In this document: one piece after another, positions 1-14,865 of the stretch
Numbering within the stretch: position 1 is the stretch's first letter
Layout: every line of letters starts with the position of its first letter
DNA from: Halobacterium sp. KA-4
GTDB lineage: Archaea; Halobacteriota; Halobacteria; Halobacteriales; Halobacteriaceae
Direction of reading: 5' to 3'
Length of the DNA stretch: 64,000 bases
Assembly (NCBI RefSeq): GCF_021028995.1
Contig: NZ_JAJJZG010000012.1
Location: 1-64,000, forward strand
Made by a program: the position numbers and the translations under genes
Notes under the pieces: model-generated
What the model saw: the letters and a program-made list of their open reading frames with translations, nothing else
Told to the model about the DNA's origin: nothing
The model's database searches: none

Positions 1-5
1 TACGT

Positions 6-34
6 GGCGACGCCCCGCCGAGGCGGGCGTCGCC
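6..34. repeat. GC-rich inverted repeat at window edge
   Basis: An inverted repeat GGCGACGCCCCGCC / GGCGGGCGTCGCC with a 2-base loop and one extra C on the left arm. It resembles the hairpins found before many minus-strand genes further right, but no minus-strand start is visible beside it. From about 40 to 332 I see no supportable gene. Confidence 0.5.
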
Positions 35-332
35 TCTGGTGGTGGCCTTTCGAGGAGTTCATCGATATGGTAACCCGAGCAGCGTGGACGGCCCTCGCGG
101 TGCGTCGGGCCGTCCCCGCAAATCGGCCACCTGATGATCGGTTCCACCGGTAATCAGTGACGGAGTTAGCCCCCCGCTCGGAGTGGCAACGCTGTCGAGT
201 CGGCGGCTGACCGCCGCCGACAGCGACAGCTCTCTATTGGTTCGTCCAAGATTCTCACATCGAGACCGCCGGTGCAACCGCTCCGCCACAGAATTCAGGC
301 TTCAGAAACAGCTAGCCGAGGATGCTTTGTGA

Positions 333-1469
333 GGTACTGAGTGTGAATTCGAGGTCGTCGCCTCCGTCGAACCGCGTGAGATCCGCCGGCGGTTGTTCGA
401 GAAAGCCAACGAGCGCTATCCGATCGTCCGGCAGCCGACGCTCGGCGAGGACACTCAGAAACTGGAGGTGTACAGCGCGGTCGCTGACGACCTTGGGGTG
501 TCGCTCGAGGAGTGCTATCGAGGGATGTACGCCGATCTCGAAGACAACAAGCGACTCGTCCGAATCGGCACGCGGACGGCCGACCAGTACGCCAGTGATG
601 AAGATGCGTCGACGTCGACGACCAACCTGACCGGCAGCAGCGACGCGGCGTACGAACACACGGACCTCACCGTGGACTGGCTGTTGACGCGCTACAACCT
701 CGCGCTCGCTCAGGCGGTGCTCTACGACGCCACAGAAATGCGGATTCGGGTGTGGGACCACTTCGGGACGGTGTTCAGCTACGTGAAGCTGTTCGGGTTG
801 ATGCATCGCATCTATCCGATCGACGCCGACGGTGAGCGCGTCGCGAGCACGGACCAGGCCGTAGGATATGAGGCCGTACTGGACGGCCCGGCGTCGCTGT
901 TCTCGAAGTCGCAGAAGTACGGGATCCGGATGGCGAACTTCCTGCCGGCGCTGCCCCTCTGTGACCGGTGGGGGATGACGGCGAAGATTCTCGTCGACGA
1001 AACGGCCGGCGCGACGCGACAGTTCGCACTCGATCACACAGAGGGCCTCGATTCGCACTACAGTGTTGGCAAGCGGTTCGATAGCGACGTGGAGCGGACG
1101 CTCGCCGATAAATGGGAGCGAGCGAATACGGACTGGGAGTTGGTGCGGGAAGACGACGTCTTCGATCTGGGTGCTGAGGTGATGATTCCCGACTTCGCGA
1201 TCGAGCATCCCGATGGCAGGCGTGCGATTCTCGAGATCGTCGGCTTCTGGACACCCGAGTATCTAGACGCGAAGCTGGAGAAGATTCGAAAGGTGGAGGC
1301 CGACAATTTCGTGCTGGCTGTCTCAGAGCGGCTGGATTGTGCAAGCGAGGAGTTCGGGAGCGCCGCCGATCGAGTGCTGTGGTTCAAAACTGGAATTCAC
1401 GTCTACGACGTAGTCGATTTAGCTGAACAATACGCGACAGAGATGCCACAGAGTCAAGAGCAGGCTTGA
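333..1469 (+). pseudogene. 5'-truncated DUF790/Bax1-type nuclease
   Basis: The reading frame is open from just after a TGA at 330-332, but the first possible start is TTG at 393. Homology-like sequence already begins before it (FEVVASVEPREIRRRLFEKA), so the N-terminal part of the protein is missing. The C-terminal half carries the PD-(D/E)XK-like nuclease core of DUF790: MIPDFAIEHPDG, then LEIVGFWTPEYLDAKLEK. This family includes Bax1, a partner nuclease of the XPB helicase in archaeal DNA repair (family knowledge). Full-length haloarchaeal members are, from memory, nearer 450-500 residues. The gene stops 3 bases before an IS element. It is probably a decaying remnant, although a shortened product from TTG 393 (358 residues) could still be made. 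Confidence 0.72.
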
Positions 1470-1472
1470 AAG

Positions 1473-2412
1473 GGCTGTGTTGAATCGCTGTAAGGCGGAG
1501 AGATTCACTGTTTGACGAAGCGTTTGATGTTATAGACGACACACATCAGCGCGATTTCGCGGAATTCACGGAACCATGACCGCGCTCGCACGGCGAAGCC
1601 GAGCGAGCGCTTCACAGCCGAGTTCACGGTTTCGGTCATAGAGCGTTGATTGTAGCGGTTATCGTCGATTCTGGCGTTGTGTGCGTGGTCGTACGGAGCG
1701 AAGATGCGGTGCTTGATCAGCGGTCTGATCCCGAGGTCGCGCAATCCTTCACGAAGCGATTGCTTGTCATAGCCTTTATCGGCCGCGAGAGACCGCAGAT
1801 CGCCCGCGTTCCGGCGGGCGATCTGCTCAGCGAGGTCTGCGTCGCTTCCTTCCCGATTCGTTGAGCAGTGAACGTCAAGGACAGCCTGAGACGCTGTATC
1901 GACGAGCTTCGTGACTTTCAGCTTCTGAACGCGGTAGCTGATTCGCTGGCAGTAGTGGCGGCTGGCTGGTGAGCGGTCGTAGAACGTAGCGTCGATGGCA
2001 GCGTGTTCAGAGAGACCGTGCAGCTGCGCCGACTGGCGCAGCAGCACTCGACAGACGCTCATGCTGATCCGGTCGAACGCCTTACACAACGTGGAGGACG
2101 CGGGGAGATCGGCCGCGTCGAGGCCGATCTCCCCAGTTATTTGTGGCATCTCTTTGAGCAGGTCGATCGTCATGCGGTACGATGTATCGAGGTAAATCCG
2201 CAGACAGTGGAGGGAAACGAGTGCGTAGTCGGCGAATCCACCGCCACCGTCCGGGGCGGCGGATTCGCCTCCATCGCCAGTAACTCTTTGAGCAACCGGC
2301 ACAACTTCCCCGATGAAGCGGGAGATTTGCGTCATAGACAACCGCACTCTCCCGCTTCAACTCCTTTGGTTTAGCGGCCTACCTCGCTGCTGTATGGCGA
2401 TTCAACACGGCC
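1473..2412. mobile_element. IS5-type insertion sequence, 940 bp
   Basis: The ends are imperfect inverted repeats: GGCTGTGTTGAATCGC at 1473-1488 and its complement (one mismatch, GGCCGTGTTGAATCGC) ending at 2412. They enclose a single transposase gene. The flanking bases (CTTGAAAG on the left, GATCGAAC on the right) do not match as a target duplication, so the element may have taken part in a deletion or recombination after insertion. That would fit with its position between a truncated gene and the replication origin. Confidence 0.8.
1505..2335 (-). CDS. IS5-family DDE transposase
   Basis: Cuts and joins IS ends with a DDE catalytic triad. The likely triad is D in AIDATFYDRS (middle), D in LAADKGYDKQSLR and E in SMTETVNSAVKRSLG (C-terminal third), the usual IS5 layout. 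About 276 residues from ATG 2335, which is normal for a compact single-ORF IS5 transposase; a GTG at 2347 would add four residues. No frameshift or stop interrupts it, so the element looks intact. It ends 32 bp inside the left terminal repeat. Confidence 0.85.
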   Translation of the reverse strand: MTQISRFIGEVVPVAQRVTGDGGESAAPDGGGGFADYALVSLHCLRIYLDTSYRMTIDLLKEMPQITGEIGLDAADLPASSTLCKAFDRISMSVCRVLLRQSAQLHGLSEHAAIDATFYDRSPASRHYCQRISYRVQKLKVTKLVDTASQAVLDVHCSTNREGSDADLAEQIARRNAGDLRSLAADKGYDKQSLREGLRDLGIRPLIKHRIFAPYDHAHNARIDDNRYNQRSMTETVNSAVKRSLGFAVRARSWFREFREIALMCVVYNIKRFVKQ

Positions 2413-2481
2413 GATCGAACCGATATTCGACGAGAACTCGATGAAACTCAGGTACGTGGTATCACGGTCTGGACCTGACCA

Positions 2482-2503
2482 GCCCCCGTTTTTCGAGTTG
2501 TAA
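2482..2503 (-). promoter_or_regulatory. ORB-like box 1 (origin recognition box)
   Basis: Reads TTACAACTCGAAAAACGGGGGC on the minus strand. It matches the haloarchaeal ORB pattern of a TTACA(A/C)YTCGAAA core followed by a G-string. Outermost left box of the cluster between the IS element and orc1. Confidence 0.7.
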
Positions 2504-2523
2504 ATGGGATAGGGGTGCGGTGG

Positions 2524-2545
2524 ACACCCCTATTTCGTGTTGTAA
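2524..2545 (-). promoter_or_regulatory. ORB-like box 2
   Basis: Minus-strand TTACAACACGAAATAGGGGTGT, with one core change (ACACGAAA). Lies 23 bp start-to-start from box 3, so two Orc1 molecules could bind on nearly the same helix face. Confidence 0.75.
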
Positions 2546-2546
2546 G

Positions 2547-2568
2547 ACACCCCTATTTCGAGATGTAA
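2547..2568 (-). promoter_or_regulatory. ORB-like box 3
   Basis: Minus-strand TTACATCTCGAAATAGGGGTGT. Tandem with box 2, same orientation. Confidence 0.75.
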
Positions 2569-2702
2569 ATATGCCGCCTACGCCCTCTACAGCCCATCTA
2601 TCCGGTATTCCAGCTTCAGGGACGATGTCCACAGTTGCCTACTCGAAATGAAGGCAGCTGCGGATCGCGATGAGCATCCACTTGTGAGTACATCGCAAAA
2701 AC

Positions 2703-2725
2703 ACACCCCCTATTTCGAGTTGTAA
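2703..2725 (-). promoter_or_regulatory. ORB-like box 4
   Basis: Minus-strand TTACAACTCGAAATAGGGGG followed by TGT; consensus core with one extra G in the G-string. Confidence 0.78.
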
Positions 2726-2766
2726 CGCGAACGGCCGCTCCCGTATCGAAGATCGATATCCGAGAC

Positions 2767-2788
2767 ACACCCCTATTTCGAGTTGTAA
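2767..2788 (-). promoter_or_regulatory. ORB-like box 5
   Basis: Minus-strand TTACAACTCGAAATAGGGGTGT, the consensus copy. It lies 39 bp beyond the orc1 stop codon. Confidence 0.8.
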
Positions 2789-2827
2789 ACGAAAGGGGGG
2801 GTCAAATCGGAAGCCTCAGTCGGGACT

Positions 2828-4261
2828 CTAGTTCAGAAACCCGTTCATTTTCGATTTCGCGATAGAGCGCATCATCTCTTCTTCTTGTTCCAGGTTAGCA
2901 AAACGATCGTCCTCCAGGATTCGTTCCATAATCGACTCAGGGTCTTCAGCGAGGTCGAAGTGCATGTGGATGCCTTTTCCCCGTCCTCGACCACGACGGT
3001 CGAACTCAAGGATGCCATAGGTCGCCTGTTCAGTAACATGGTTCACGAAGGTTTCTCGGCCATAGGAATCAGCTCCGAGAGTGTCACAGACGAACTGGTA
3101 GAGGCTGTAGGAGGGTCCGGCGGGAATCCAGTCCACACTGGCATTTGAGTAGTGGTCTGTCGCAGCAACGGCGAAGATACAGAGCTTCTTTTGCGTCGAG
3201 AGTCCACCGATATGCCGTAATTTCCGATCGGAGTCATATCGGTCCTGGGCAGTCCGGACGTGTGATTCTTCGACACGCTCGTCTCCTTGTTTATCGGCTA
3301 ATTCCCCGGACCACCGAAGCAGATCGATAGCCTTCCGTGCATCACCGTGTGTCTGAGAGCCGAACGCGGCGACGAGTGGGACGACGTCATCCGCGAGAGC
3401 CTCAGGCTTGAAGGCGTCTTCACGATTGCGGAGGATATGTCGAAGCTGCGTTGCGTCGTAATCCTCGAAGAAGATCTCGTCTGGATTGAATGAGCTATTC
3501 GCGCGGCTATTGAGATCAGACATGAAATCGACGTAGTTGGTTATCGCAGTGACGGAAACGGGGCCATCAAACCGGCCGAGGTCTCGAGCCCGCGAGAGTT
3601 GGTAAAGGAGTGAATTATATTCTGGTTCCGAGTATGGGCCGTCGAGCATGTCGACCTCGTCTAAGACGAAAATTACGCCGTCATAGTGTTCGCGCATGAT
3701 TTCCCACAGGCGCTCGAGTTTCTGATCTGTCGAGACCCCACTCTCGGGAACACCCGGTTCTTCATCGATATTTGCCGTCGCTTCTTGAATGAGACGATAG
3801 ACTGCACGACTGGTCGTACCTGGGCCCTCGCAGTTTATTGAAAACACACCGAACCGCATTCCCTGAGCCTCACTCAGCTCGACGATTTTCTTACAGACAG
3901 CATGGATAATCAGGGATTTCCCCGTTCCAGACGGCCCAGTCAGCAACATCTCCGGAATGCCGTGGTTCTGGAGAGCGGGTTTGAGATTTGTGATGACGGT
4001 CTTCAACTGCTCATCGCGACCAACGATCCGATCTTCGTCGATTATCGTATCCGGACGAACCAAATCCTTGTTTTCGAAGACAGTCTCAACAGATTCAGAT
4101 TGGAGCTCGTCCATAATCGAGATCCCGCTACCAGAATCGTCGAGCGTAGTTTGACTGCTGGTAGACTCCTCGGAGTTACTCTCTCCGTGCTCTCCGGGAA
4201 CCTCCGTTATAGATTCAGACTGTTCCGTCTGGTTATCTGTAACCGGCGATTCATCACCCAT
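2828..4261 (-). CDS. Orc1/Cdc6 replication initiator
   Basis: AAA+ initiator that binds ORB boxes and loads MCM at the origin. About 477 residues. An acidic, low-complexity N-terminal tail (about 60 residues) is followed by the AAA+ core with Walker A LLTGPSGTGKSLI and Walker B VIFVLDEVDML. The C-terminal part (RHIGGLSTQKKLCIFAVAA onward) is the winged helix that contacts DNA. I chose ATG 4261 over the TTG at 4267 because the TATA-like CTATAAATA at 4283-4291 then gives near-leaderless spacing. ORB boxes flank the gene on both sides (five below, five above), the classic haloarchaeal origin arrangement. An orc fragment at 5119-5205 suggests an earlier duplicate. No partition genes are visible beside it. 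Confidence 0.93.
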   Translation of the reverse strand: MGDESPVTDNQTEQSESITEVPGEHGESNSEESTSSQTTLDDSGSGISIMDELQSESVETVFENKDLVRPDTIIDEDRIVGRDEQLKTVITNLKPALQNHGIPEMLLTGPSGTGKSLIIHAVCKKIVELSEAQGMRFGVFSINCEGPGTTSRAVYRLIQEATANIDEEPGVPESGVSTDQKLERLWEIMREHYDGVIFVLDEVDMLDGPYSEPEYNSLLYQLSRARDLGRFDGPVSVTAITNYVDFMSDLNSRANSSFNPDEIFFEDYDATQLRHILRNREDAFKPEALADDVVPLVAAFGSQTHGDARKAIDLLRWSGELADKQGDERVEESHVRTAQDRYDSDRKLRHIGGLSTQKKLCIFAVAATDHYSNASVDWIPAGPSYSLYQFVCDTLGADSYGRETFVNHVTEQATYGILEFDRRGRGRGKGIHMHFDLAEDPESIMERILEDDRFANLEQEEEMMRSIAKSKMNGFLN

Positions 4262-4282
4262 ACCCAATCCTCTGTGGGCCTA

Positions 4283-4291
4283 CTATAAATA
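4283..4291 (-). promoter_or_regulatory. TATA box of orc1
   Basis: CTATAAATA (read on +) lies 22-30 bp upstream of ATG 4261, consistent with a leaderless transcript. ORB-like box 6 lies 10 bp further upstream, so initiator binding could repress its own promoter (inference). Confidence 0.6.
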
Positions 4292-4300
4292 GGTAAAGGC

Positions 4301-4319
4301 AACCTATTTCGATTTGTAA
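4301..4319 (-). promoter_or_regulatory. ORB-like box 6 (degenerate)
   Basis: Minus-strand TTACAAATCGAAATAGGTT. The core is kept but the G-string is lost. It sits directly upstream of the orc1 TATA box. Confidence 0.55.
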
Positions 4320-4398
4320 TCTCGAAGATTCACCCGGTGGAGTTACTGAGTCGGCAGTCTCCTCATTCTAAGTGTCGAACCGGTTTCGATACAGAGAC

Positions 4399-4420
4399 GC
4401 ACCCCTATTTCGAGTTGTAT
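4399..4420 (-). promoter_or_regulatory. ORB-like box 7
   Basis: Minus-strand ATACAACTCGAAATAGGGGTGC; consensus apart from the end bases. Confidence 0.72.
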
Positions 4421-4453
4421 AGTCGTGTCAAAGATTAAATTGAATCTAGCCAC

Positions 4454-4475
4454 ACACCCCTTTTTCGAGTTGTAA
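4454..4475 (-). promoter_or_regulatory. ORB-like box 8
   Basis: Minus-strand TTACAACTCGAAAAAGGGGTGT; A in place of T before the G-string, as in boxes 9 and 10. Confidence 0.78.
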
Positions 4476-4649
4476 CGGATTGGGAGCCTCTAACACGGTT
4501 TCGAGATATTCTTGACGCCCGGTCGTGTCATATCAATAGTATTGGTCGGAAGTAGTTCAGCCCACCCGTTGAGAACCCACCCAAGAGAAGTCACGAACCA
4601 TCCTCGAAGACCAGCTTGACCACTACTCCACGGGAGAGTCCTCACACCC

Positions 4650-4671
4650 CCACCCCTTTTTCGAGTTGTAA
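4650..4671 (-). promoter_or_regulatory. ORB-like box 9
   Basis: Minus-strand TTACAACTCGAAAAAGGGGTGG, followed by more G residues. It pairs as an inverted partner with box 10, about 330 bp away. Confidence 0.8.
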
Positions 4672-4795
4672 CGCACAACAGCGGGAGGGACAGATGAGCT
4701 GTTAGACGAGATCGAAACACCACGAAACTGCGGTAGAGAGCTTCAAACAGCGATTCTCACGGTGTTCCTCGAACAAACCCATGTCGATCCTACTA

Positions 4796-4834
4796 CTCAC
4801 GGATACGTAAGCTTCCTTACGTATCGTTCGTGAG
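4796..4834. repeat. Inverted repeat in putative unwinding region
   Basis: A perfect 10-bp inverted repeat GATACGTAAG / CTTACGTATC (4802-4811 and 4816-4825, 4-base loop) is extended by an outer CTCACG / CGTGAG pair. It lies between the two oppositely oriented ORB boxes 9 and 10, where the duplex unwinding element is expected. A second shorter repeat, ATGGGA / TCCCAT, follows at about 4865-4888. Confidence 0.65.
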
Positions 4835-4998
4835 AACCACCTAGTGCGGATGTTGTTTGCTACCATGGGACATAAAGGTTCCCATCTTATAGTCCTATGT
4901 AGAATTTCGGGGTAAGGAGGCGTGATACCTCTAAAAACCGGTTATTCGAGTTGTTTGAGCCTTCTTCGGCTTTCTCTCCCCACCCCACCCTTGTTCTG

Positions 4999-5020
4999 TT
5001 ACAACTCGAAAAAGGGGTGG
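4999..5020 (+). promoter_or_regulatory. ORB-like box 10 (inverted)
   Basis: Plus-strand TTACAACTCGAAAAAGGGGTGG, followed by GGGTGTC. It is the only box in this orientation, so it faces box 9 across the intervening segment, as in canonical archaeal origins. Confidence 0.8.
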
Positions 5021-5118
5021 GGGTGTCACCCACCTCTCGAGGCAGGACCTCGCTCGAGAATCCATTACCTACCTACGGCCTACACTCCAAGGGGATCGTC
5101 CACCAAATATGCTTCTAC

Positions 5119-5205
5119 AGCCCGTTAGGGACGGGGCAGTCACTCATCATCAACGCAGTTTGTCAGCAGGTTCTCGAACCCGCGAATCCACAGAGTGACC
5201 GATCT
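5119..5205 (+). pseudogene. Degenerate orc1/cdc6 fragment (Walker A region)
   Basis: The plus frame reads SPLGTGQSLIINAVCQQVLE. This closely parallels GPSGTGKSLIIHAVCKKIVE of the intact Orc1 at 2828-4261, but on the opposite strand. The essential Walker A lysine is replaced by Q and the rest of the gene is absent; on either side the similarity stops within a few codons. I read it as the relic of a second initiator gene that once faced this origin from the other side. Confidence 0.7.
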
Positions 5206-5231
5206 ACTACGAGATGTCGGCAGAGTTCGTC

Positions 5232-5555
5232 TTATTCGTCGGGATTGACTGGCGATTTATATTTTGACTTGATTTTTTCTCCCTCCCGCCACTGCCAGTA
5301 GTAGTACCGGTTGTCGTTGATCTCCTTGATCGTGATTGTGGCTTTCGACGGGACGTCGTCCGGGAGGTCATTCGGCCGATCCTCGACTTCGTCGTCATCT
5401 GATTGCTCCTCGAGGCGGGCCTCGCGAGCTTTGTGCTCTGCTAGCTCCTCGGCGTAGCGTGCGACCTGCTGGAGCTGATCTGGAGCGTACCCGTTGAGGG
5501 AATTGACGATGTCTGTCGGGAGTTCTGCCGGTGGCGTCGGTGGCTCGTAGGGCAT
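5232..5555 (-). CDS. Small acidic hypothetical protein with KSKYKSPV-type C-terminus
   Basis: About 107 residues from ATG 5555 (MPYEPPTPPAELPTDIV). The N-terminal half predicts helices rich in E, R and A; the C-terminal half is a basic beta-like segment, ATITIKEINDNRYYYWQWREGEKIKSKYKSP. This W/Y-rich strand pattern resembles small DNA-binding modules in haloarchaeal mobile DNA, but I cannot name a function. A longer TTG start at 5579 would run into the repeated palindrome at 5572-5612, so ATG 5555 is preferred. That palindrome lies 16 bp upstream and may control this gene. Confidence 0.65.
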   Translation of the reverse strand: MPYEPPTPPAELPTDIVNSLNGYAPDQLQQVARYAEELAEHKAREARLEEQSDDDEVEDRPNDLPDDVPSKATITIKEINDNRYYYWQWREGEKIKSKYKSPVNPDE

Positions 5556-5571
5556 TGGCTGTCGCCTCGTG

Positions 5572-5612
5572 TTAACCAACAGAAGCCATCAATTCATAGC
5601 TCTGTTGGTTAA
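5572..5612. repeat. Long-spacer palindrome copy 1
   Basis: TTAACCAACA at 5572-5581 and TGTTGGTTAA at 5603-5612, 21-base spacer. It directly follows the TAA stop of the SWIM gene and lies 16 bp before ATG 5555. Confidence 0.9.
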
Positions 5613-6440
5613 TTACGCCTGGTTCGATTCAGTCGGGAGTCGACCGTCCGGGCGAGGAACCCGTCTTTGCTTGATTTCGTGGTCTACCCGGCGGATGTGT
5701 TTGCAGCCGCCCTCGGGCTCTCGTTGCTGCCAGTCCGGACAGGTGCAGGATTCGCTAATTACGTCGACCTCGTACCACCTCCCCGAGGCTGACTGCACCT
5801 CGTACCGGCCACCCTTTTTGAGCAGCGAGACTGCCATTGTTTCGTCGACGGCCCGTCGAGTTCGCGGTTCGAGGTCTGCACACTGGTTCGAGTGCTTCGT
5901 GACGACCATCCGGTCGCGAACATCGCCAGTTCGTCCACCGTCCGACGCCACGGCGCCGGGAGGAGTCTGGAGCTGATCCTGCAGCAGGTCTTCAATCGGA
6001 TGACCCTCCGGCCACAGATAGTGGACTTCCCGCCGATCGCGATGGTCGTAGGAGCCACAGGCGGCAGCGCTCCCAGTCCAGACACACCACGCCCCGAGTG
6101 CTGCCATCACGTCGACGATGACTCGCGGAACAGCGTCGTATTCGTCGGGGTAGAATACCCGGAAGCGAGTACATGCCTCCTGCGGCGGAACCGTCTCCCA
6201 CCACTCGACGTCGTCGTCCCAGCTGTTGCACATCGCGTCGTCCTCTCCGTAGCCGACAGTCACGCCGTCAATCTGCGGTACCTCCACCGATGTGTCGTCA
6301 GCCTCGTCTTCGAGCAGCCGAAGGACGGCGTACCGGAGATACTCGTGTTCCGGATGGTCTGATGATTGGGCGACCTGCTCGTGGTGCTCTGCGACTCGCT
6401 CTGCCTCGTCGAGAACGGTCGTTAGATATCGGTCGGTCAT
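5613..6440 (-). CDS. SWIM zinc-finger protein
   Basis: About 275 residues. The C-terminus holds a SWIM finger: two Cys in CTCPDW, then C and H in GGCKHIRRV. SWIM domains bind DNA or proteins and are common in mobile elements of haloarchaea (family knowledge). The first ~200 residues have no motif I recognise: an acidic helical start, then a W- and C-containing beta-rich part. The gene is bracketed by two copies of the long-spacer palindrome (5572-5612 and 6492-6533) and has a hairpin at 6460-6483 just upstream of its ATG. Divergent from the HTH-NTase pair beginning at 6665. Confidence 0.82.
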   Translation of the reverse strand: MTDRYLTTVLDEAERVAEHHEQVAQSSDHPEHEYLRYAVLRLLEDEADDTSVEVPQIDGVTVGYGEDDAMCNSWDDDVEWWETVPPQEACTRFRVFYPDEYDAVPRVIVDVMAALGAWCVWTGSAAACGSYDHRDRREVHYLWPEGHPIEDLLQDQLQTPPGAVASDGGRTGDVRDRMVVTKHSNQCADLEPRTRRAVDETMAVSLLKKGGRYEVQSASGRWYEVDVISESCTCPDWQQREPEGGCKHIRRVDHEIKQRRVPRPDGRLPTESNQA

Positions 6441-6459
6441 AGTTCGTGGAGACGGGACT

Positions 6460-6483
6460 GCGCCTCCGCCCCTCGGCGGGCGC
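6460..6483 (-). repeat. Pre-start hairpin (GCGC-CCGCC family)
   Basis: GCGC at 6460-6463 pairs with 6480-6483 and CCGCC at 6466-6470 with 6475-6479. The loop is CCTC and CT is bulged. About 20 bp upstream of ATG 6440. Confidence 0.7.
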
Positions 6484-6491
6484 TGATAGAC

Positions 6492-6533
6492 TTAACCAAC
6501 AAATAGCGATCAGTCGTATCCTCTGTTGGTTAA
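6492..6533. repeat. Long-spacer palindrome copy 2
   Basis: TTAACCAACA at 6492-6501 and TGTTGGTTAA at 6524-6533, 22-base spacer. The only copy not at a gene 3' end: it lies in the divergent gap between the SWIM gene and the HTH gene at 6665. Confidence 0.9.
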
Positions 6534-6593
6534 TTCATTTCTGCTCGAATGCTGCGCCGGATCGGACTACCGGAGCCAAGAATTATATATCTG

Positions 6594-6611
6594 TATAGAG
6601 ATAACTCTATA
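6594..6611. promoter_or_regulatory. Operator-like palindrome upstream of HTH-NTase module 1
   Basis: A perfect TATAGAG-ATAA-CTCTATA inverted repeat in an A+T-rich patch that begins AATTATATATC at 6581. It is well placed to overlap a core promoter for the operon at 6665 and to bind the HTH protein encoded there (inference). Confidence 0.55.
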
Positions 6612-6664
6612 GGAAATACGGGGGACAAGACTAATACCGTTAGATGCGATACCGATAACTAGCA

Positions 6665-7339
6665 ATGATGGAGTACGTCGACGAGACCGCGGCGAAGATC
6701 ATGGTCGCGGCCCGGCCGGGCGACTCGATCCGTCGAATCGCCCAGAAGATCGACGGCTCCTACTCCTGGGTCTACGACTGGATCGAGCGGTTGGAGGACG
6801 CAGGCTTCATCCGGCGTGAGGACGGCGTCTACATCGAGAATTACGCTGTCAGGGATCGCTACTACGATCTCGTCGCCGCTATTTCTCGCGCTGTTCCCCC
6901 CTCGATCGACGACGGCTACGTCATTCCGCACTTCGCCGGGATGCCCTTTGCGTACACGAAAATCGACGGCGTCTACGTCTGGACCCACGGCGGCTATCAG
7001 ATCGCCCGGGGCCACGACGATTATCCGATCTTCATCCAGGTCGCCGACCGGGATGTTGAGCAGTGGACGGCATTCTTTGATGAGTTCGGGATTCCGAGCC
7101 GGATCGAAGAGCGGCCGGATGCGAGCGACTACGACGCGACCGTCTCGTACGTGTTGTTCCCGACGAGTGGGGGCATCACTCGCGAGTGGGTCGACGGCAA
7201 TCCGGTCATTCCGTTGGACGATGCAATCGAGCACATGTTGGAGTACCGGGTGAACTACGAGCCGGCGTTGGAGATGATCGCTGACGAGTACGACCGCGAT
7301 ATTGACGCGTCCCACGAGGATCCGCGTTTGAACGCATGA
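6665..7339 (+). CDS. Winged-HTH partner of nucleotidyltransferase, module 1 (AbiEi-like role)
   Basis: About 224 residues. The N-terminal 60 residues form a winged HTH (DSIRRIAQKIDGSYSWVYDWIERLEDAGFI). The remaining ~160 residues are a mixed alpha/beta domain with the conserved stretch VYVWTHGGYQIARG and VDGNPVIPLDDAI. The stop overlaps the start of the nucleotidyltransferase by four bases (ATGA), so the pair is translationally coupled. The layout, an HTH-plus-domain protein followed by an MNT-like nucleotidyltransferase, parallels AbiEi/AbiEii toxin-antitoxin systems. The homologue at 17042-17707 has the same partner and the same order. Two ATGs (6665, 6668) are possible starts. Confidence 0.78.
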   Translation: MMEYVDETAAKIMVAARPGDSIRRIAQKIDGSYSWVYDWIERLEDAGFIRREDGVYIENYAVRDRYYDLVAAISRAVPPSIDDGYVIPHFAGMPFAYTKIDGVYVWTHGGYQIARGHDDYPIFIQVADRDVEQWTAFFDEFGIPSRIEERPDASDYDATVSYVLFPTSGGITREWVDGNPVIPLDDAIEHMLEYRVNYEPALEMIADEYDRDIDASHEDPRLNA

Positions 7340-8031
7340 GTCTCGGTGAACGCGAAGACGAGCTGCTGGATACGCTGGAGGCCGTCATTGACGCTGACCT
7401 GCCATACGTCCTCGTCGGTGGGTGGGCGATCGCGGCGTTCAATCAGCGCTTCACCACGGACGTCGACGTCGTCATTCCGGCCCAAGCGGTCGACGACTAC
7501 ACGGACCTTCTCACCGACCGCGGCTACGAGAAAACGGCCGATGTCGAGCGAAACGAGCTCTACGAGGGCCGTACCATCCGGTTTGAGAAGGACATCGGGA
7601 ATCCGGTTCGGTTCGACGCGATGGTCGACGCGTTGGGCTGTCGCCAGACGGAAGCTGAATGGTCGTATCGCTATCTGACCCAGCACTCCGTCACCCAGGA
7701 ACTGCGAACCGGGCGCCCGGTAACAGCCAGGATTCCGGAACGGGAGTTGCTGTTTGCCGTGAAACTTCACAGTGGCCGCAAGGCAGACTCCCGGGATCTG
7801 GTGGTGCTGGCTGCTGGCGCGGATTTCGACCGGATCGCGACTCATCTGCATCGCGGAGAATCCGAGAAGCTCGCTGGTCGCATCGAGACTGTCCTCAACC
7901 GCCTCACGTCGGAGGATTTCGCAGATGCATTCAAAGGAGTCTTCGAACAGCAAACGGTTCCCGAACAGGATATCGATGCCGTCGTTGAGTTCCTTCGTGA
8001 CCAGCAGCGCCGAATCGATTCTGAACGATAA
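7336..8031 (+). CDS. Nucleotidyltransferase, module 1 (AbiEii/MNT-like)
   Basis: About 231 residues. The nucleotidyltransferase signature is near the N-terminus: VLVGGWAIAAFNQRFTTDVDVVIP, that is GG followed by the catalytic D-x-D. Family members transfer nucleotides to proteins or tRNA and act as toxins in AbiE-type systems (family knowledge; the substrate here is unknown). Paralogous and identical in length to the protein at 16344-17039. Expressed with the upstream HTH gene through a 4-base overlap. Its stop is followed by palindrome copy 3 and the convergent ArdC-like gene. Confidence 0.8.
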   Translation: MSLGEREDELLDTLEAVIDADLPYVLVGGWAIAAFNQRFTTDVDVVIPAQAVDDYTDLLTDRGYEKTADVERNELYEGRTIRFEKDIGNPVRFDAMVDALGCRQTEAEWSYRYLTQHSVTQELRTGRPVTARIPERELLFAVKLHSGRKADSRDLVVLAAGADFDRIATHLHRGESEKLAGRIETVLNRLTSEDFADAFKGVFEQQTVPEQDIDAVVEFLRDQQRRIDSER

Positions 8032-8096
8032 CATCGACTGTCGATGGGTATGTCTCGGGACCGATCGAAACACACGGGGTCGGGATGCCGAACGAA

Positions 8097-8138
8097 TTAA
8101 CCAACAATGTCGACAGAGTACCCTCCGGCGTTGGTTAA
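8097..8138. repeat. Long-spacer palindrome copy 3
   Basis: TTAACCAACA at 8097-8106 and CGTTGGTTAA at 8129-8138 (one outer mismatch), 22-base spacer. It lies in the convergent gap, 18 bp past the stop of the ArdC-like gene. Confidence 0.88.
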
Positions 8139-8156
8139 CAGCCGGGAAGGGGGTGT

Positions 8157-9086
8157 TCAGCCCTCTACAACTGTGTCGATGATTTCCTGAGCGGTCGAAC
8201 TGATCCGGCCGAGACGCTCCTGAATACTCTCCGCATCGTCGTCCTGCCACGCGGCAAGATAGAACGCTGACCCGCTCGTATCCAGGTTGAAATACCGCCC
8301 GACGATGTACGCAACGGCTTCCGCTTCGACCTCGCGTTTTGCGCGCTCGGGCTCGTCGTCGCCATCGAAATGAAGCAGCGCGTGGGCGTACTCGTGAACC
8401 AATGTCACCGCGAGATCGGCCTGATTTGAGCGGGCTTTCGCTTCGACGACGGGCTGGCCCTCGTGGAGAGTCCGGTGTTTGCAGACGCCTTTCGCGTCGC
8501 CATGCTCCCACTCGGCAGCGTCGACGACACGGACGTCGATATCGAGAGTAGTTGCCGCATGGAGGAGCGCTGGCACCAGGTCGTCGGCGTCACCAGCTGC
8601 CTCGGTTTCCAGCTCGGGTAGCGGTTCGCCCTCGGTTTGAGACACGTCGAAGACTGCCGTTGGTTTGAATCCAACCAGTCCTTTCGACCACTCCTCGGGC
8701 GATGTCTCGTCATAGTCACAGTCGCTTTGCTCGTGGTAGCTCGGTGAGTTCTCGCACTCGGGGCACTGCTTCGTAATAATGGGTGCCCAGATCCAGATCG
8801 CCTGTTCGCCCTCTTGGACGTGCCGGTCGAACTCCGATCTCCACGTATTGTAGCCCGCCACGCGGGTCGCCTCGGGACACTGGAGTTTGATCAGGAGGGT
8901 GTTACGATGAGAATAGTCGTGGAATCGGGACTGGACATCGAGCCACTCCTGGAACTGTTGGCTGGCTTTTGCCTCGTCGACGTCTGCGACGAGATCGTCG
9001 ATCCAGTCTTCGATCGTACTGTGCATCTTGTCGTGTCGGGTGTCGGTCTCCTCGAACGAGACCCCCGACTCACTGGCTGTCATCAT
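8157..9086 (-). CDS. ArdC-like antirestriction/metallopeptidase protein
   Basis: About 309 residues. The N-terminal part (IEDWIDDLVADVDEAKASQQFQEWLD, then YSHRNTLLIKLQCPEATRVAGY) resembles the ArdC ssDNA-binding domain. The C-terminal part has the zinc peptidase motif HEYAH followed by a downstream E-rich helix (EVEAEAVAYIVGRYF). This combination is typical of plasmid antirestriction proteins that protect incoming single-stranded DNA (family knowledge). Between them is an unusual Cys-rich insertion, QCPECENSPSYHEQSDC. I chose ATG 9086 because it follows a CAATCC leader seen before other genes here; a GTG at 9098 is also possible. Fits with the conjugation operon at 37-49 kb. Confidence 0.82.
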   Translation of the reverse strand: MMTASESGVSFEETDTRHDKMHSTIEDWIDDLVADVDEAKASQQFQEWLDVQSRFHDYSHRNTLLIKLQCPEATRVAGYNTWRSEFDRHVQEGEQAIWIWAPIITKQCPECENSPSYHEQSDCDYDETSPEEWSKGLVGFKPTAVFDVSQTEGEPLPELETEAAGDADDLVPALLHAATTLDIDVRVVDAAEWEHGDAKGVCKHRTLHEGQPVVEAKARSNQADLAVTLVHEYAHALLHFDGDDEPERAKREVEAEAVAYIVGRYFNLDTSGSAFYLAAWQDDDAESIQERLGRISSTAQEIIDTVVEG

Positions 9087-9132
9087 GGATTGCATCACAT
9101 CGAGTACGACGACGTCTCCGAGAAGTCAGGAC

Positions 9133-9154
9133 GCGCCGCACCCCTCGGGGGCGC
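9133..9154 (-). repeat. Pre-start hairpin
   Basis: GCGC at 9133-9136 pairs with GCGC at 9151-9154, and CCCC at 9141-9144 with GGGG at 9147-9150. It contains the family's GCACCCC segment. About 47 bp upstream of ATG 9086. Confidence 0.7.
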
Positions 9155-9198
9155 ACGATAAACATCGGCGCGACTTCGGGGGGTTTAGATCGGAGCTG

Positions 9199-9546
9199 CT
9201 ATCGGAGCGCTGCTTTCTCGTCAGCGAAGCCGACCGTGACGAGGTACTCAAGGAACGCGTCGAACTGGTCGACATCGCTCGGCGTGTCCGTCGCGAGGTG
9301 TCGTGCCCACTCGATGGCCCACTGGAACGCAGGATCGGTCCCGCCCTTACCATGTATATACCACCAGCGGGCGGCCTTCAGGACGACGAGCGGATTCGTC
9401 GGCGGTTGCTCGCTTGCGAGTCCACGAGTGATCGACCGAATCTCCTCGGGTACCTCGGCGGGGTCGACCTCGCCTGATTGGGTGTTCGATACGTCGACTG
9501 GAATGTCGTCAATCGAGACATCGTTCGGACGCTGTTGTTGACTCAC
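9199..9546 (-). CDS. Hypothetical protein, 115 residues
   Basis: GTG start at 9546. Acidic, hydrophilic first third, followed by a helical region with the run VVLKAARWWYIHGKGGTD and a helical C-terminus ending FADEKAALR. No motif that gives a function. Hairpins lie before it (9587-9602) and between it and the ArdC-like gene (9133-9154). It may be co-transcribed with the genes on either side. Confidence 0.62.
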   Translation of the reverse strand: MSQQQRPNDVSIDDIPVDVSNTQSGEVDPAEVPEEIRSITRGLASEQPPTNPLVVLKAARWWYIHGKGGTDPAFQWAIEWARHLATDTPSDVDQFDAFLEYLVTVGFADEKAALR

Positions 9547-9586
9547 GGAAAATCACCTTCTCGGAGGACTTTTTGGATCGAGCCCT

Positions 9587-9602
9587 CGCCCCCTCCGGGG
9601 CG
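9587..9602 (-). repeat. Pre-start hairpin
   Basis: CGCCCC / GGGGCG with a CTCC loop, perfect 6-bp stem. A T-run lies on its far side when read on the minus strand (GGTTTTTCG). About 41 bp upstream of GTG 9546. Confidence 0.72.
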
Positions 9603-9621
9603 CGAAAAACCACTCGTAGCG

Positions 9622-10623
9622 TCACGCCGGTGGAATGTACACGCTCTGCTCGCTGGCGATCTCCTCCAGGTTGTTCCGATGGCGATGTGAGAAGTAGCAC
9701 TCGTAGCTGCAGTAGCCACAGAGCACGCCGGTATCATACTCAGCGATGAAGGGACCGCGTCGAGTCGTCCAGACGTTCGCTTCGCATTCGGTACACACAG
9801 CGCTATCGAGATTGGTCGGTGACGGACCCTCGTACTCGATTTCGAGGATGTCGCTATGTGGCGTTGAGTCGGGCCAGACGCCGTGAGACTGCCAGAAGGC
9901 CTTGATGCGGGCGAGACTGTGTCGGACTGTCTTCCGAACTGTGACGTGGGAGGCGTCACGACCGCTATCATCCCAGCCGTCAGCCGTCCAGAACTCCCCG
10001 AACTGCGCGCCGCGATGCAGCCCGTTCCAGTCGAGGCCGACGATGTCGGCCGGTGGGTCGTCCGTGAGTGTCGGTCGGGTCAACTGCTGGATGACGTCCC
10101 ACTGTTTCGGTGGGCTGCCCCCCAAGATGTGAACACGACGGCCACGCCAGTCGGTCGGCTCGGAGAACTCGTGGGCCAATCGGTCGGCGTACCCCCGCGA
10201 GTAGCCGAGCACGAGGTCGTTCGGGATCGTGTCGATCACCTCGCGGCACTTTGGGACGATGACGAGTTCTGCGTCGGGATAGCTCGCCTGGATTTCGCGA
10301 GCCGCGGCCACGTACTCGTAGACGTCGTCGGGCTCGTATGCATCCCCAATCACGCCGACTCGGGGCTCGTGTTCGAAAAATCGGGAGACGTACCGGTCAA
10401 GATCGGGATTCCGAAAATCGTTATCGAGCATCCCGACGGGGATGTTCAAGTGCTGAAACTGCGTCTGCTGATAACTACAATCTTCCCGAAAGCCGGGCAA
10501 GAAGCCGAGTTTGAAGGCGTCAAACACAAACGGAGCGCGATGCAGGAACGCCACGACGTCGGCTTGTCTGGCAGCTGCAATCTCTCGTGCAGTGCTGCTG
10601 CTAGTGCTGGTATCAAGCGACAT
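9622..10623 (-). CDS. DUF6610-type hypothetical protein
   Basis: About 333 residues from ATG 10623. The N-terminal two thirds read like a queuine/archaeosine tRNA-guanine transglycosylase-like barrel region (VPKCREVIDTIPNDLVLGYSRGYADR, then GRRVHILGGSPPKQWD, PADIVGLDWNGLHRGA). The C-terminus has a CxxC pair (VCTECE) and a CGYCSYECYFSHRH cluster likely to bind zinc. I recall haloarchaeal plasmid and virus proteins of this kind as DUF6610, but this is from memory. A nucleic-acid role is plausible because of the barrel motifs and zinc cluster; the substrate is unknown. Confidence 0.7.
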   Translation of the reverse strand: MSLDTSTSSSTAREIAAARQADVVAFLHRAPFVFDAFKLGFLPGFREDCSYQQTQFQHLNIPVGMLDNDFRNPDLDRYVSRFFEHEPRVGVIGDAYEPDDVYEYVAAAREIQASYPDAELVIVPKCREVIDTIPNDLVLGYSRGYADRLAHEFSEPTDWRGRRVHILGGSPPKQWDVIQQLTRPTLTDDPPADIVGLDWNGLHRGAQFGEFWTADGWDDSGRDASHVTVRKTVRHSLARIKAFWQSHGVWPDSTPHSDILEIEYEGPSPTNLDSAVCTECEANVWTTRRGPFIAEYDTGVLCGYCSYECYFSHRHRNNLEEIASEQSVYIPPA

Positions 10624-10654
10624 GAGTAGGGCCTGGCGCGACCGTCTCTGGCCG

Positions 10655-10674
10655 CCCCGCACCCTCTCCGGGGG
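10655..10674 (-). repeat. Pre-start hairpin
   Basis: CCCC / GGGG stem around GCACCCTCTCC, flanked by AGAAAAAA on the + strand (a T-run on the minus strand). About 31 bp upstream of ATG 10623. Confidence 0.65.
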
Positions 10675-10699
10675 AGAAAAAACGACCGGCGGTCAGCTG

Positions 10700-10740
10700 T
10701 TAACCAACGATAACTAACGATACAGTGCTGTGTTGGTTAA
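10700..10740. repeat. Long-spacer palindrome copy 4
   Basis: TTAACCAACG at 10700-10709 and TGTTGGTTAA at 10731-10740, 21-base spacer. This copy is inside the coding end of the next gene: its left edge supplies that gene's TAA stop. Confidence 0.88.
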
Positions 10741-10969
10741 CGGGGCACTCATTCAAGTCTTCTCGTAACTCGGCCGCCTTCCACTCGAATCGTTTCAGTA
10801 TCTGTGTCCGATTCTGGTGGGCGTTCTCATAGGCGACACACTCTCGGGGCATCACCATGTCTGGGATAGTGGCGATGGCTGCGTTGATAAGTGGGTATTC
10901 GGTGCTTTGAGCCGTTTTCTCCGGTAGACCCTCATCTGCTGATTCGGATTGGCTTGACGAGTCACCCAT
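10700..10969 (-). CDS. Small protein with VAYENA motif, copy A
   Basis: About 89 residues from ATG 10969 (MGDSSSQSES). The middle reads INAAIATIPDMVMPRECVAYENAHQNRTQILKRF, which is matched closely by the protein at 16001-16222 (INAGIVTINDMETLRACVAYENANQQRVQILRRL). The two are clear paralogues with a disordered acidic N-terminus and one helical core. The last 15 or so codons and the stop are made of palindrome copy 4, so the C-terminus was probably rewritten when that element arrived, or the element is tolerated as coding DNA. Function unknown. Confidence 0.7.
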   Translation of the reverse strand: MGDSSSQSESADEGLPEKTAQSTEYPLINAAIATIPDMVMPRECVAYENAHQNRTQILKRFEWKAAELREDLNECPVNQHSTVSLVIVG

Positions 10970-11020
10970 TGTGGGCGCCTCACCGTTTGATGGAGCAAAA
11001 AAGGGACGCGATCCAGACAC

Positions 11021-11641
11021 TTACTGGTCTTGAGATGCAGCTACGACCATATCCATAGTTGGATAGAAGAGGCGGCGTTGAAGAACTTCAATCGGCCCTC
11101 GATCTCTGGTTTCTTCAAATAATTCGTGCCGGCGGCGAAACTCCTCAGTGCCTAACTCGTGAACAACGTTCAGCTCCGCGTGTAGCTCTTCGTTCCGAAT
11201 AACGCGAAGATATCCTTTTCCGGTTAGCGTGGCGAAAACGATGCCGATTAAGACTGCAATGGCACCCTGAACCAATGAATAAATCGGATCCAGTACGCCG
11301 ATCACACCGACGGCGATGGTGAGACAGATGAAACCTACAGTGAGCGACGCGAGGCTGACTGTGAGGACTATGAATTTGAGTCGGGCGGTAGGGCTTCGGC
11401 TGGCGTGGCCGTGTTCGTGGAGGAATAGATACTCAACAAGCTCGGTCGACAGGTCGCATTTAACCCGCTCGTTTAGCCAAATTGTATTGAATATTGTCGT
11501 TTTCCCGGGGGCGCCGATAACTTCGTCTGGCATCCAGCAAACAGTCGCCGATGTTCCACCAACGCTGTATTCATCGGTGTCGCCGACAGACTGTCCTGGA
11601 ACCGGAAACAGCCTTATGAGGGACCTTGTAACAAGATTCAC
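11021..11641 (-). CDS. Membrane zinc metallopeptidase (HEHGH)
   Basis: About 206 residues, GTG start at 11641. The zinc motif HEHGH is at residues 75-79 in the helix LVEYLFLHEHGHASRSP. Two strongly hydrophobic segments follow (about residues 90-115 and 120-145). Further on, NEELHAELNV could supply the third zinc ligand, as in M48-type peptidases. Clearly A+T-richer than the genes on its left, like the two genes upstream of it on the same strand (12164-14047), so the three may have arrived together. It may be a protease effector or a processing enzyme for that cassette; this is inference. Confidence 0.7.
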   Translation of the reverse strand: MNLVTRSLIRLFPVPGQSVGDTDEYSVGGTSATVCWMPDEVIGAPGKTTIFNTIWLNERVKCDLSTELVEYLFLHEHGHASRSPTARLKFIVLTVSLASLTVGFICLTIAVGVIGVLDPIYSLVQGAIAVLIGIVFATLTGKGYLRVIRNEELHAELNVVHELGTEEFRRRHELFEETRDRGPIEVLQRRLFYPTMDMVVAASQDQ

Positions 11642-12163
11642 GGACTTATGGGGTTGGAGGCAGGCCGGTGGAATAAATCAGATGGTAGCAGGTGCGGTAT
11701 CGTTGTGTCCAGCCTAGCGCAAGGTCCTTGAATCCCATACTAACGCACTTGTGAACCTCTTGGCGAGGTGCACTCGTAACAGTTCAAATATCTTAATCGA
11801 ATCGGTATCGGACTCGTCCGCCGTCACTTACCCACGACCTCTGGCTGGCTTGATTAGGAAGTTGAATTGCCCCGTTTCGACCCACTTGCCGGTGTCGAAA
11901 GTTTGGCTCTTTCATTGTGATTACCTCGAATTGGATTCATCATCGACTTTATGCTCTCATCACGTTCCTTGCGCTCCTTTTACAGACTCAAAAATAGCTT
12001 ACGCTCATCTCGATAGGTCGTAACATCTGGTTTTGCGATGGATTTTCGTTCCAGAGGACGGCTCTCACGGCTATCGAGTTGCTTCAGCGGTCGCAGAGAA
12101 TCTCATCGTCTCCCGTGTTACGAAGTATTGGGATAAGCCAATAGCTTATTGGGAGACCTGGAA
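11642..12163. other. 522-bp gap without a supportable gene
   Basis: A+T-rich, with only short frames that lack recognisable protein character. It separates the HEHGH membrane protein from the cyclase-like gene. It could hold a decayed gene or a long 5' region; I see no clear promoter, repeat or RNA. Confidence 0.4.
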
Positions 12164-12862
12164 TCACTCCCTATTTTTCAATTTGACCTCTGGGAGGTAT
12201 AGCTCCATCATGTCCTTATGTTGCTCGATTTTTTCTTCTGGGTAATTTGTAATATGGGAGTTCCTCTTGCTATATTCAAAGTAGGACTCCAGTTTCTTAC
12301 GGAGCTCGTTCGCCAATTCCCTATTGCTTGGATTGAACCATTTGTACCACTGGTATTGGAAATCATTAGGGGTGAAAGAACGGGCAGAATCATGGATTGC
12401 AATTCCAAATGGTGGCGCATCTTCTTCAACACCATATGCTTCCACCATTGGCGGACCAATTAGGAGAGACTCAATATTTTGGCTGTACTCCTCGTCGTCA
12501 AATTCAATCGGAAAATCTTTACCCTCAACTATCGGACCAAATGAGATTCCTCCACGGATAATGAACATACCCTCTGTGTCCCTTTCAAGTACCTGATGTG
12601 CTGCATTTTCGAAAGCAACCTCGATAAATTCAGTTAGATCTTGAATGTCCTCTGAAACTATATAAACTCCGTCCATCATTGGGTATATCGTGAGCCCATC
12701 GCTCTCAACCTCTTTAGCTAAAATTTGGAAATTCAAAATCTTCTGTGCGGCTACAGAGATATTCTGATACATATTATTACCAGTACCCATGATATCCATC
12801 CAACAAACATAGGAATATTTGGGCTCAGGTGACGGTAAACTGTCGTCGTAGCTATTGGTCAT
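12164..12862 (-). CDS. Class III nucleotide-cyclase-like protein (Pycsar-type candidate)
   Basis: About 232 residues. It carries the three landmark stretches of class III cyclase catalytic domains. YVCWMDIMGTG holds the first metal-binding Asp at residue 23 (compare F.D..GFT). MMDGVYIVS holds the second Asp at residue 64 (compare GD....). RGGISFGPIVEG at 103-114 matches the family's RIGIHTGPVVAG strand. There are no other domains, as in the stand-alone uridylate/cytidylate cyclases of Pycsar antiphage systems (family knowledge). Strongly A+T-rich against the G+C-rich replicon, indicating recent transfer. It lies 132 bp downstream of a DUF3800-like gene on the same strand. The nucleotide product cannot be told from sequence. 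Confidence 0.68.
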   Translation of the reverse strand: MTNSYDDSLPSPEPKYSYVCWMDIMGTGNNMYQNISVAAQKILNFQILAKEVESDGLTIYPMMDGVYIVSEDIQDLTEFIEVAFENAAHQVLERDTEGMFIIRGGISFGPIVEGKDFPIEFDDEEYSQNIESLLIGPPMVEAYGVEEDAPPFGIAIHDSARSFTPNDFQYQWYKWFNPSNRELANELRKKLESYFEYSKRNSHITNYPEEKIEQHKDMMELYLPEVKLKNRE

Positions 12863-12994
12863 AAGTTCTCCCCATTAACTGGGTCTCGTTGAGTTGTACA
12901 GGTGTGCATAGCTTGTATTGTCATCCAAAGTTTCTTATTCCCTCCTAAAGTTACTCTAGATAGGGCGGTGCCCCACAGGGGCGCTTCCTGGTTC

Positions 12995-14047: not shown

Positions 14048-14060
14048 TGTTGAAAGTCGT

Positions 14061-14070
14061 ATTTTTATCC
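14061..14070 (-). promoter_or_regulatory. TATA-like element for the cyclase cassette
   Basis: GGATAAAAAT on the minus strand, 14-23 bp before ATG 14047, suggesting a leaderless transcript. Confidence 0.45.
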
Positions 14071-14841: not shown

Positions 14842-14865
14842 AGGTCGAACGCGGGTCTTCGAATT

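Follow-up and report, generated by a model that had tools for sequence, protein, structure and literature searches.

Does the orc1/cdc6 initiator gene near the start of contig NZ_JAJJZG010000012.1 of Halobacterium sp. KA-4 belong to a replication origin, and what is held between the two inverted boxes at its upstream side? We analyzed the first 64,000 nucleotides of this contig (hereafter the window), in which an earlier note had proposed, from the letters alone, an origin with ten origin recognition boxes (ORBs) around orc1. Judged from the comparisons given below, the locus very probably represents a replicator-initiator module that a family of haloarchaeal plasmids shares, and the origin is a variant of the known orc1-ORB kind. 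Its inverted pair of boxes encloses a core that is found in both orientations among relatives and contains a sequence recurring in origins with unrelated boxes. This sequence may be a common, so far undescribed part of origin function.

Box array, initiator gene and conserved plan

Boxes were searched with the pattern TTACAACTCGAAAWAGGGGTGT at up to three mismatches, using 100 shuffles as a control. Nine boxes match, eight on the minus strand and one (box 10) on the plus strand, while the maximum in any shuffle is zero; all coordinates are collected in Table 1. The tenth, box 6 (TTACAAATCGAAATAGGTT), is degenerate and is found by a 19-base pattern at three mismatches. Five boxes lie about 40–343 bp past the orc1 stop and the other five before the orc1 start, with boxes 1–9 oriented with orc1 and box 10 opposite, so that both the number and the orientation given in the earlier note hold. 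Across the whole draft genome, up to three mismatches yielded 10 box matches, all at this locus, and the backward control yielded none. Nine of ten boxes in one direction is weak evidence alone (two-sided p 0.02), and the layout is meaningful because it is conserved in relatives. Two details need correction: the G-tract of box 1 is broken (AAACGGGGGC), and the inverted repeat made by boxes 9 and 10 extends into their flanks and is perfect over 29 bp. These two boxes point outwards, their G-tracts facing away from the enclosed core of ~325 bp. A degenerate eleventh box at 4938–4954 was dropped, as it is not kept in the aligned relatives.

The gene itself is intact. Its product scores 359.5 bits against TIGR02928 (cut-off 181.3), has Cdc6 lid and winged-helix domains over their cut-offs and contains an AAA+ domain; among solved structures, archaeal Cdc6 homologues (for example 2qby_A and 2v1u_A) are closest to it in sequence. 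The orc1 homologue annotated in Halobaculum at 1434 nt fits the start assigned here. The locus thus combines an intact Orc1/Cdc6, G-tract boxes beside its gene and an inverted box pair, which are three of the features expected of an origin.

To follow this plan in relatives we fetched 18 of the 26 plasmid records with Orc1 identity of at least 60%, plus two loci (L031 and L032) from named genomes. Together with the window these make 21 loci, chosen by Orc1 protein similarity alone (identity 66–100%) and regardless of boxes. Box array, adjacent intact orc1 and inverted pair occur together in 20 of the 21 (the window and 19 of the 20 relatives), each with upstream direct boxes, a distal inverted pair and 3–6 boxes behind orc1. 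This supports the replication origin around orc1 that the earlier note had predicted. The exception is L032 from Haloquadratum walsbyi J07HQW2, where orc1 is 98% identical, matches only from residue 19 and has downstream boxes and none upstream. Downstream boxes, 3–6 in number, are present in all 20 Orc1-selected relatives (five in the window, 2482–2788). The J07HQW2 gene is a captured, altered copy. It lies in a 3.6-Mb scaffold, and a second orc1 piece (L033, residues 21–226) lies ~2.8 Mb away without boxes.

The inverted-pair pattern, limited to spacings of 329–359 bp (the Orc1-selected set had no such limit), was found at 39 places in 37 of 392 genomes of the order. The 38 places outside the window were fetched, and 46 distinct cores were available after removal of 12 duplicates. 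Their inverted pairs are 332–357 bp apart, and the core is upstream of orc1 in all 44 cores that have an orc1 in reach. Both inner boxes read AAAAAGGGG in 46 of 46 cores, although the search pattern left the fifth A open, and the outer boxes drift among relatives (AAAACGGGG, AAATAGGGG, AAAATGGGG). The suggestion that the box consensus would match this initiator with its relatives was borne out, since the consensus search recovered them. Spacings cluster near 333, 345 and 356 bp. The Rayleigh p for helical phasing is about 2e-5 at period 11 and 4e-5 at 10.5 with 20 clusters, and 1.5e-3 to 2e-3 with 10 clusters, and periods of 9.5–12 are all raised. Phasing of the box spacing with the helix is suggestive only, the period having been picked after viewing the data and the genome pattern having been restricted to 329–359 bp. 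On the Salinirubellus plasmid NZ_CP104004.1 two identical copies of the origin core lie at about 28.9 kb and 222.0 kb.

Box and initiator go as a pair, because four plasmids with ~52%-identical Orc1 carry another box; the present box is absent from them at up to two mismatches, with one three-mismatch site each in pHALXA02 (L082) and pNRC200 (L083). The latter two resemble our locus in having the core element and an inverted pair of similar spacing (352 bp in pHALXA02, 361 bp in pNRC200), but their Orc1 is ~51% identical, their box is TTACACATCGATGACGGGG and their core lies downstream of orc1. A regular expression for their pair gave no match, and the pair rests on a repeat search. The exact box pattern was not found in viral contigs; five phage records hold distant Orc1 relatives at ~24% identity.

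The degenerate box 6 also stands up to comparison. In the form TTACAAATCGAAAT(A/C)GGT it is kept in the window and in all five close relatives inspected, directly 5' of the TATA-like TATTTATA, and group B, which is more distant, showed no box there. The box that had been placed directly on the promoter is therefore present, its position being just upstream of TATTTATA and not over the start codon. Autoregulation, as suggested at the outset, is plausible from this pattern: box 6 would be a weak autoregulatory site, probably limiting orc1 transcription.

The invertible core and its palindrome

The segment between boxes 9 and 10 proved to be invertible, to hold a covarying hairpin and to contain an element common to other origin classes, all three of which the earlier note had missed. 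A Halobaculum plasmid with an identical Orc1 (L063) is colinear with the window in both flanks (129 of 138 and 146 of 150 bases). Its core matches the window in 315 of 326 bases when reversed and in 192 of 270 as it stands, and the inversion falls exactly at the boxes. Three further inversions were verified by flanks (L150 vs L149, L152 vs L116 and L132 vs L131). Scored by orc1 direction, nine of 44 cores have the orientation opposite to that in the window (L063, L073, L076, L079, L126, L132, L139, L150 and L152); this count leaves out L123 and L140, whose fetched stretches contain no orc1. For L079 the alignment gave no decision (16 vs 15), and this core was scored as inverted from a minus-strand match of R1, a model of the core described below. 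An apparent inversion in L123 was rejected, as it reflected only the strand of its record. The flips are explained by recombination between the two inverted boxes.

The 10-bp perfect hairpin reported for this segment, GATACGTAAG-cttc-CTTACGTATC, was recovered from the sequence, from a hairpin search and from a fold of alignment A2, and it has an outer arm of CTCACG and CGTGAG. Group A (7 sequences) has a stem of at least 10 bp in six and of 8 bp in L031, with two hairpin pairs changed on both sides. The 38 group-B cores have a palindrome of up to 12 bp, some imperfect, at the same place and with another sequence. Covariation in group B was assessed on 37 distinct rows, L079 being left out. Here 90.3% of palindrome cells pair, and 31 cells are changed on both sides, compared with 11.4 ± 3.0 in shuffles (0 of 500 reaching the value) and 3–5 in slid structures. 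The unguided consensus fold of alignment A1 is weak (6 pairs, −0.26 kcal/mol). G-U pairs fill 14 of 442 cells, and because they are so few we favor a symmetry of the DNA over one of RNA; the palindrome might form a cruciform or a single-strand hairpin or serve as a dimer site. It is not general: a fold z below −1.5 behind the element was reached by 7 of 22 representatives.

A core element shared with other origin classes

Next to the palindrome the core holds an element of ~50 bp, GAAA-n-TTTAT-n15-ACCATAACCGTACTAG, which also occurs beside five other orc1 genes of the same genome, none with the present box. Across groups A and B the sequence before the palindrome (in the direction used here) reads GAAA-n-TTTAT, 15 bp, ACCATAACCG and YACTAG. 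The 15-bp spacing between the blocks is fixed in all 20 aligned rows, with one inserted base further left in L143.

A profile of groups A and B matches other orc1 loci at E 2.4e-4 (L082), 0.013 (L081), 0.021 (L084), 0.046 (L014) and 0.16 (L021), and more weakly at 2.9 (L020), 3.2 (L016), 5.9 (L083) and 7.6 (L019), with the reversed control starting at 8.2. One stray match (L032, E 4.8) outranks the true L083 and L019, and given this match the A/B profile does not suffice alone. The R1 model, which includes the palindrome, finds other classes only weakly (E 0.06–0.54), which led us to build R2 from sequence only. Searching with just the 16-base second block, at two mismatches, was unspecific (3 matches vs 3 backward controls) and was rejected. 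Rows left out before counting were L079 (A1, A3 and R1) and L143 with its inserted base (weight matrix). In a leave-one-class-out test over eight classes, with at most two loci tested per class, the single best place of the weight matrix was the element in 11 of 11 tested loci (scores 14–39), and 0 of 200 dinucleotide shuffles reached the score in each tested locus.

In its own genome R2 gives six matches at E ≤ 10, all beside orc1 genes. The 25 orc1 matches of this genome reduce to 16 distinct loci (three neighbors merged and six weak matches omitted), and weight-matrix scores are 40–53 at six of them, at most 3.6 at the other ten and at most 8.4 in a control window of 58 kb, training rows included. 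Other orc1 origins of the genome (contigs C5, C6, C14, C15, C19 and C20; L012–L014, L017, L020 and L021) belong to clearly different box classes; that on C6 has the box GAACATTTGGGCAAGTGGGGGGTGGGGGT and a perfect 29-bp inverted pair at 343 bp.

Among 40 genomes, its own included, R2 gives 40 matches at E ≤ 1e-3, at least 34 of them within 1.5 kb of a listed orc1 (at least 28 of 34 with its own genome excluded); at E ≤ 1 the figure is at least 52 of 73. The distances to orc1 are upper bounds and the counts of near matches accordingly lower bounds. Six matches at E ≤ 1e-3 lie away from a listed orc1, and three of the four fetched hold an orc1 by tblastn. Altogether, 34 of 35 fetched R2 loci (six from its own genome) hold orc1. 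An inverted repeat with arms of at least 12 spans the element in 24 of the 35 compared with 1 of 67 control centers, and is found in seven of the eight classes. Several box types are represented among the repeat arms, one being CCCCCACCCCTTCGTTTCG, which we take to be the oriC1 box, our label 'oriC1-like' following from this assumption. pNRC200, pHALXA02 and the Halobaculum plasmid have one element match each at E ≤ 1. In a search with stricter filters over 120 genomes of the phylum (19 in the order), none of the 101 genomes outside the order matched R2 at E ≤ 0.01, nor did eight genomes of the order, six of which belong to one genus, apparently Halorubrum. The oriP upstream of cdc6K on H. hispanica pHH400 (L196 2803–2855, minus strand) reads GGAAAAGTTTATAATACTATGCTGAGAGCTAGACCGTAGTGC, with blocks that look similar by eye, a spacing one base less and half of the second block lost; the resemblance is not significant.

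Replicon, predicted function and alternatives

The window opens a 108,202-base contig in a draft of 3,336,915 bases and 55 contigs. Its Orc1 is 100% identical to the one encoded on a 271-kb Halobaculum magnesiiphilum plasmid, identity to the Orc1 of three other plasmids is 89–92%, and 22 further plasmid records have an Orc1 at 60–80% identity. Genes right of the origin recur on such plasmids, for example an ArdC-like gene and a helix-turn-helix gene. We take the replicon to be a megaplasmid. Positions 5635–25000 form a backbone common to many haloarchaeal plasmids, in which matching records annotate merA and a cation P-type ATPase. An IS5-family transposase gene (1505–2347, minus strand) lies near the downstream box cluster, with a DUF790/Bax1-like endonuclease gene (393–1469) beyond it. 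The reading frames at 5232–5579 and 5613–6440, right of the box 9/10 pair, gave no Pfam or NCBIfam match, and an Rfam search of positions 1–9000 gave no match at E ≤ 1. Fragments of this origin occur on two Halobacterium salinarum plasmids, NZ_CP146626.1 (327540–328308, 93%) and NC_010368.1 (240080–240476, 89%). Both represent the downstream box side, the former also holding the 3' part of orc1, and they are possibly relics or decoys.

Table 1. Features of the orc1 locus (positions in the window)
Feature	Positions	Strand	Remarks
Box 1	2482–2503	−	downstream of orc1; 3 mismatches; G-tract broken
Box 2	2524–2545	−	downstream of orc1
Box 3	2547–2568	−	downstream of orc1
Box 4	2704–2725	−	downstream of orc1
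Box 5	2767–2788	−	downstream of orc1; perfect
orc1/cdc6 initiator gene	2828–4267	−	likely start ATG 4261; intact
Box 6	4298–4319	−	degenerate; just upstream of orc1 TATA-like TATTTATA
Box 7	4399–4420	−	upstream of orc1
Box 8	4454–4475	−	upstream of orc1
Box 9 (4650–4671) with flanks	4644–4672	−	left arm of 29-bp inverted repeat
Origin core	4673–4997		between boxes 9 and 10; inverted in Halobaculum plasmid L063
Palindrome	4796–4834		10-bp stem 4802–4811/4816–4825; 6-bp outer arm 4796–4801/4829–4834
Core element	4839–4900	−	GAACCTTTAT (4881–4872), 15 bp, ACAACATCCG (4856–4847), CACTAG (4846–4841)
Box 10 (4999–5020) with flanks	4998–5026	+	only inverted box; right arm of 29-bp inverted repeat

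We consider it likely that a haloarchaeal megaplasmid has its origin and initiator module here and that the model as a whole applies. The Orc1 made here would bind its own boxes. Orc1 takes its polarity from the ORBs, and at an inverted pair an MCM ring is loaded from each of the two sides (PMC7776575); by position, boxes 9 and 10 would be such a pair, framing the ~325-bp core where DNA opens and MCM hexamers load from both sides. Because the box frame is symmetric, the core could flip without losing function. The boxes behind orc1 would probably titrate Orc1, and the weak box at the promoter would keep its transcription low.

Titration is proposed because the same downstream arrangement acts as a negative control in H. 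hispanica oriC2. There, the ORBs flank the initiator gene on both sides of oriC2-cdc6E, and 11 ORBs directly downstream (oriC2D) negatively control the origin, likely by titration, with plasmid-like incompatibility (PMC3936714). Likened by description, our locus agrees in having boxes on both sides and a cluster of the same class directly downstream, and differs in having five downstream boxes and in lying on a probable plasmid. We found no mention of a palindrome, an invertible core or a shared element in the text on oriC2 in that paper. The origins next to haloarchaeal orc/cdc6 genes surveyed by Wu et al. (2012) have inverted G-string ORBs around an AT-rich stretch, an ORB class tied to the Orc class and in some cases ORBs in both flanks (PMC3528665). 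Inverted G-tract boxes next to orc1 and boxes in both flanks are found here as well. The motif search of that study was aimed at ORBs, and we found no mention there of an ORB-independent element or a core inversion.

The closest parallel to the core element is ucm of the Sulfolobales oriC, a non-ORB motif between inverted ORBs that is common to origins with different initiators; it is required in vivo for oriC1 activity and is bound by UBP, which interacts with MCM (PMC12141716). The haloarchaeal element likewise is a non-ORB motif that sits between inverted boxes and spans different initiators, a likeness of position and logic. It belongs to another phylum, the Sulfolobales ORB3–DNA unwinding element–ORB2 arrangement measures ~130 bp compared with ~345 bp here, and the main text of that paper has no word beginning 'euryarch' or 'haloarch'. 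Nor is the element in all origins of the cell: 6 of the 16 distinct orc1 loci have it within 1.5-kb flanks. Since place and logic are the same, we propose a ucm-like role, in which this directional element, not an initiator box, probably serves a general factor. A wider proposal can be put forward only tentatively: haloarchaeal origins would have a common non-box core element, read by a shared host factor to load or release MCM as a euryarchaeal counterpart of ucm, and origins of different replicons would plug this one core into differing boxes and Orc1 proteins, the core of the present plasmid family being an invertible cassette with boxes spaced by whole helical turns (~333, 345 and 356 bp). 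In the open-license texts searched, figures and supplements apart and with PMC3528665, PMC3936714, PMC4010727 and PMC7776575 among them, neither a shared non-ORB element nor a flipping core is described for haloarchaeal origins; a prior description elsewhere is possible.

Several observations weigh against these readings. The core is not strongly AT-rich (GC 0.49), its weakest 31 bp averaging −1.17 kcal per step compared with a core mean of −1.39 and thus being locally less stable. The identity of the replicon is indirect, because the draft has 55 contigs and the window begins at a contig end. Ten of the 16 distinct orc1 loci of the genome are without the element within 1.5 kb, and three of these (L012, L013 and L017) bear box-like inverted arrays. 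At E ≤ 1 up to 21 of the 73 R2 matches are farther than 1.5 kb from any listed orc1. The training set of R2 consisted of five rows of the same genome, aligned by hand and taken from outside this box class, a bias that only the leave-class-out test removes. A search for an inverted repeat around the element came up empty in class E (L016/L164), and the proven pHH400 oriP gives R2 no more than a half match (E 0.56), which is not significant. The element has no palindrome behind it in the oriC1-like class, in class D and in two of the three group C loci, and of the five measures of covariation two are no higher than in the shuffles (pairs with two-sided changes, 4; further pair types, 10).

A considerably less probable account of the element is a promoter, with GAAA-n-TTTAT as transcription factor B recognition element (BRE) and TATA box and ACCATAACCG as start region, whose transcript would open the core DNA or prime replication, the palindrome acting in the RNA. 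GCGAAAGTTTATG agrees with a haloarchaeal BRE/TATA, the spacing to the second block is fixed at 15 bp, and a start ~25 bp downstream would land in ACCATAACCG. However, the TATA position reads ACTAA, CTTAA and AGTAA in the oriC1-like, F and G classes, the direction of the element relative to orc1 flips, and the rarity of G-U pairs and the lack of an Rfam match at E ≤ 1 both speak against an RNA.

It is unlikely that the locus is a dormant or secondary origin, its boxes serving mainly to soak up Orc1 and to determine incompatibility, with another orc1 replicating the plasmid. Dormant origins are known in haloarchaea (PMC4595724) and at least 12 orc1 places over the cut-off occur in this genome, but in the genome-wide search this orc1 is the only one on the 108-kb contig, and a useless module would hardly be kept across families on many plasmids. 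Still less credit can be given to the box 9/10 repeat being primarily a switch for phase variation that regulates the origin or orc1. The inversion is exact in the four flank-verified pairs and recurs in nine of 44 cores, but the repeat arms are ordinary initiator boxes, no recombinase was recognized in the two frames right of the pair by Pfam or NCBIfam, the promoter-like site of orc1 lies outside the segment, most cores (35 of 44) share one orientation, and plain homologous recombination accounts for the flips. Least probable is that the element is a relic of common descent without present function: all carriers are orc1 origins of one order with partly shared ancestry, but the blocks have kept their spacing, with a single base inserted across 20 rows, whereas the classes differ in boxes, palindrome and flanks.

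For the plasmid family, the box consensus, the pair spacing and the element make these predicted origins easy to annotate. The flipping core is a natural experiment: its orientation with respect to orc1 is probably dispensable, and this limits how MCM loading can be modeled. A short element common to several origin classes in one cell would be a direct target for studying how a single replication machinery handles haloarchaeal origins with different initiators.

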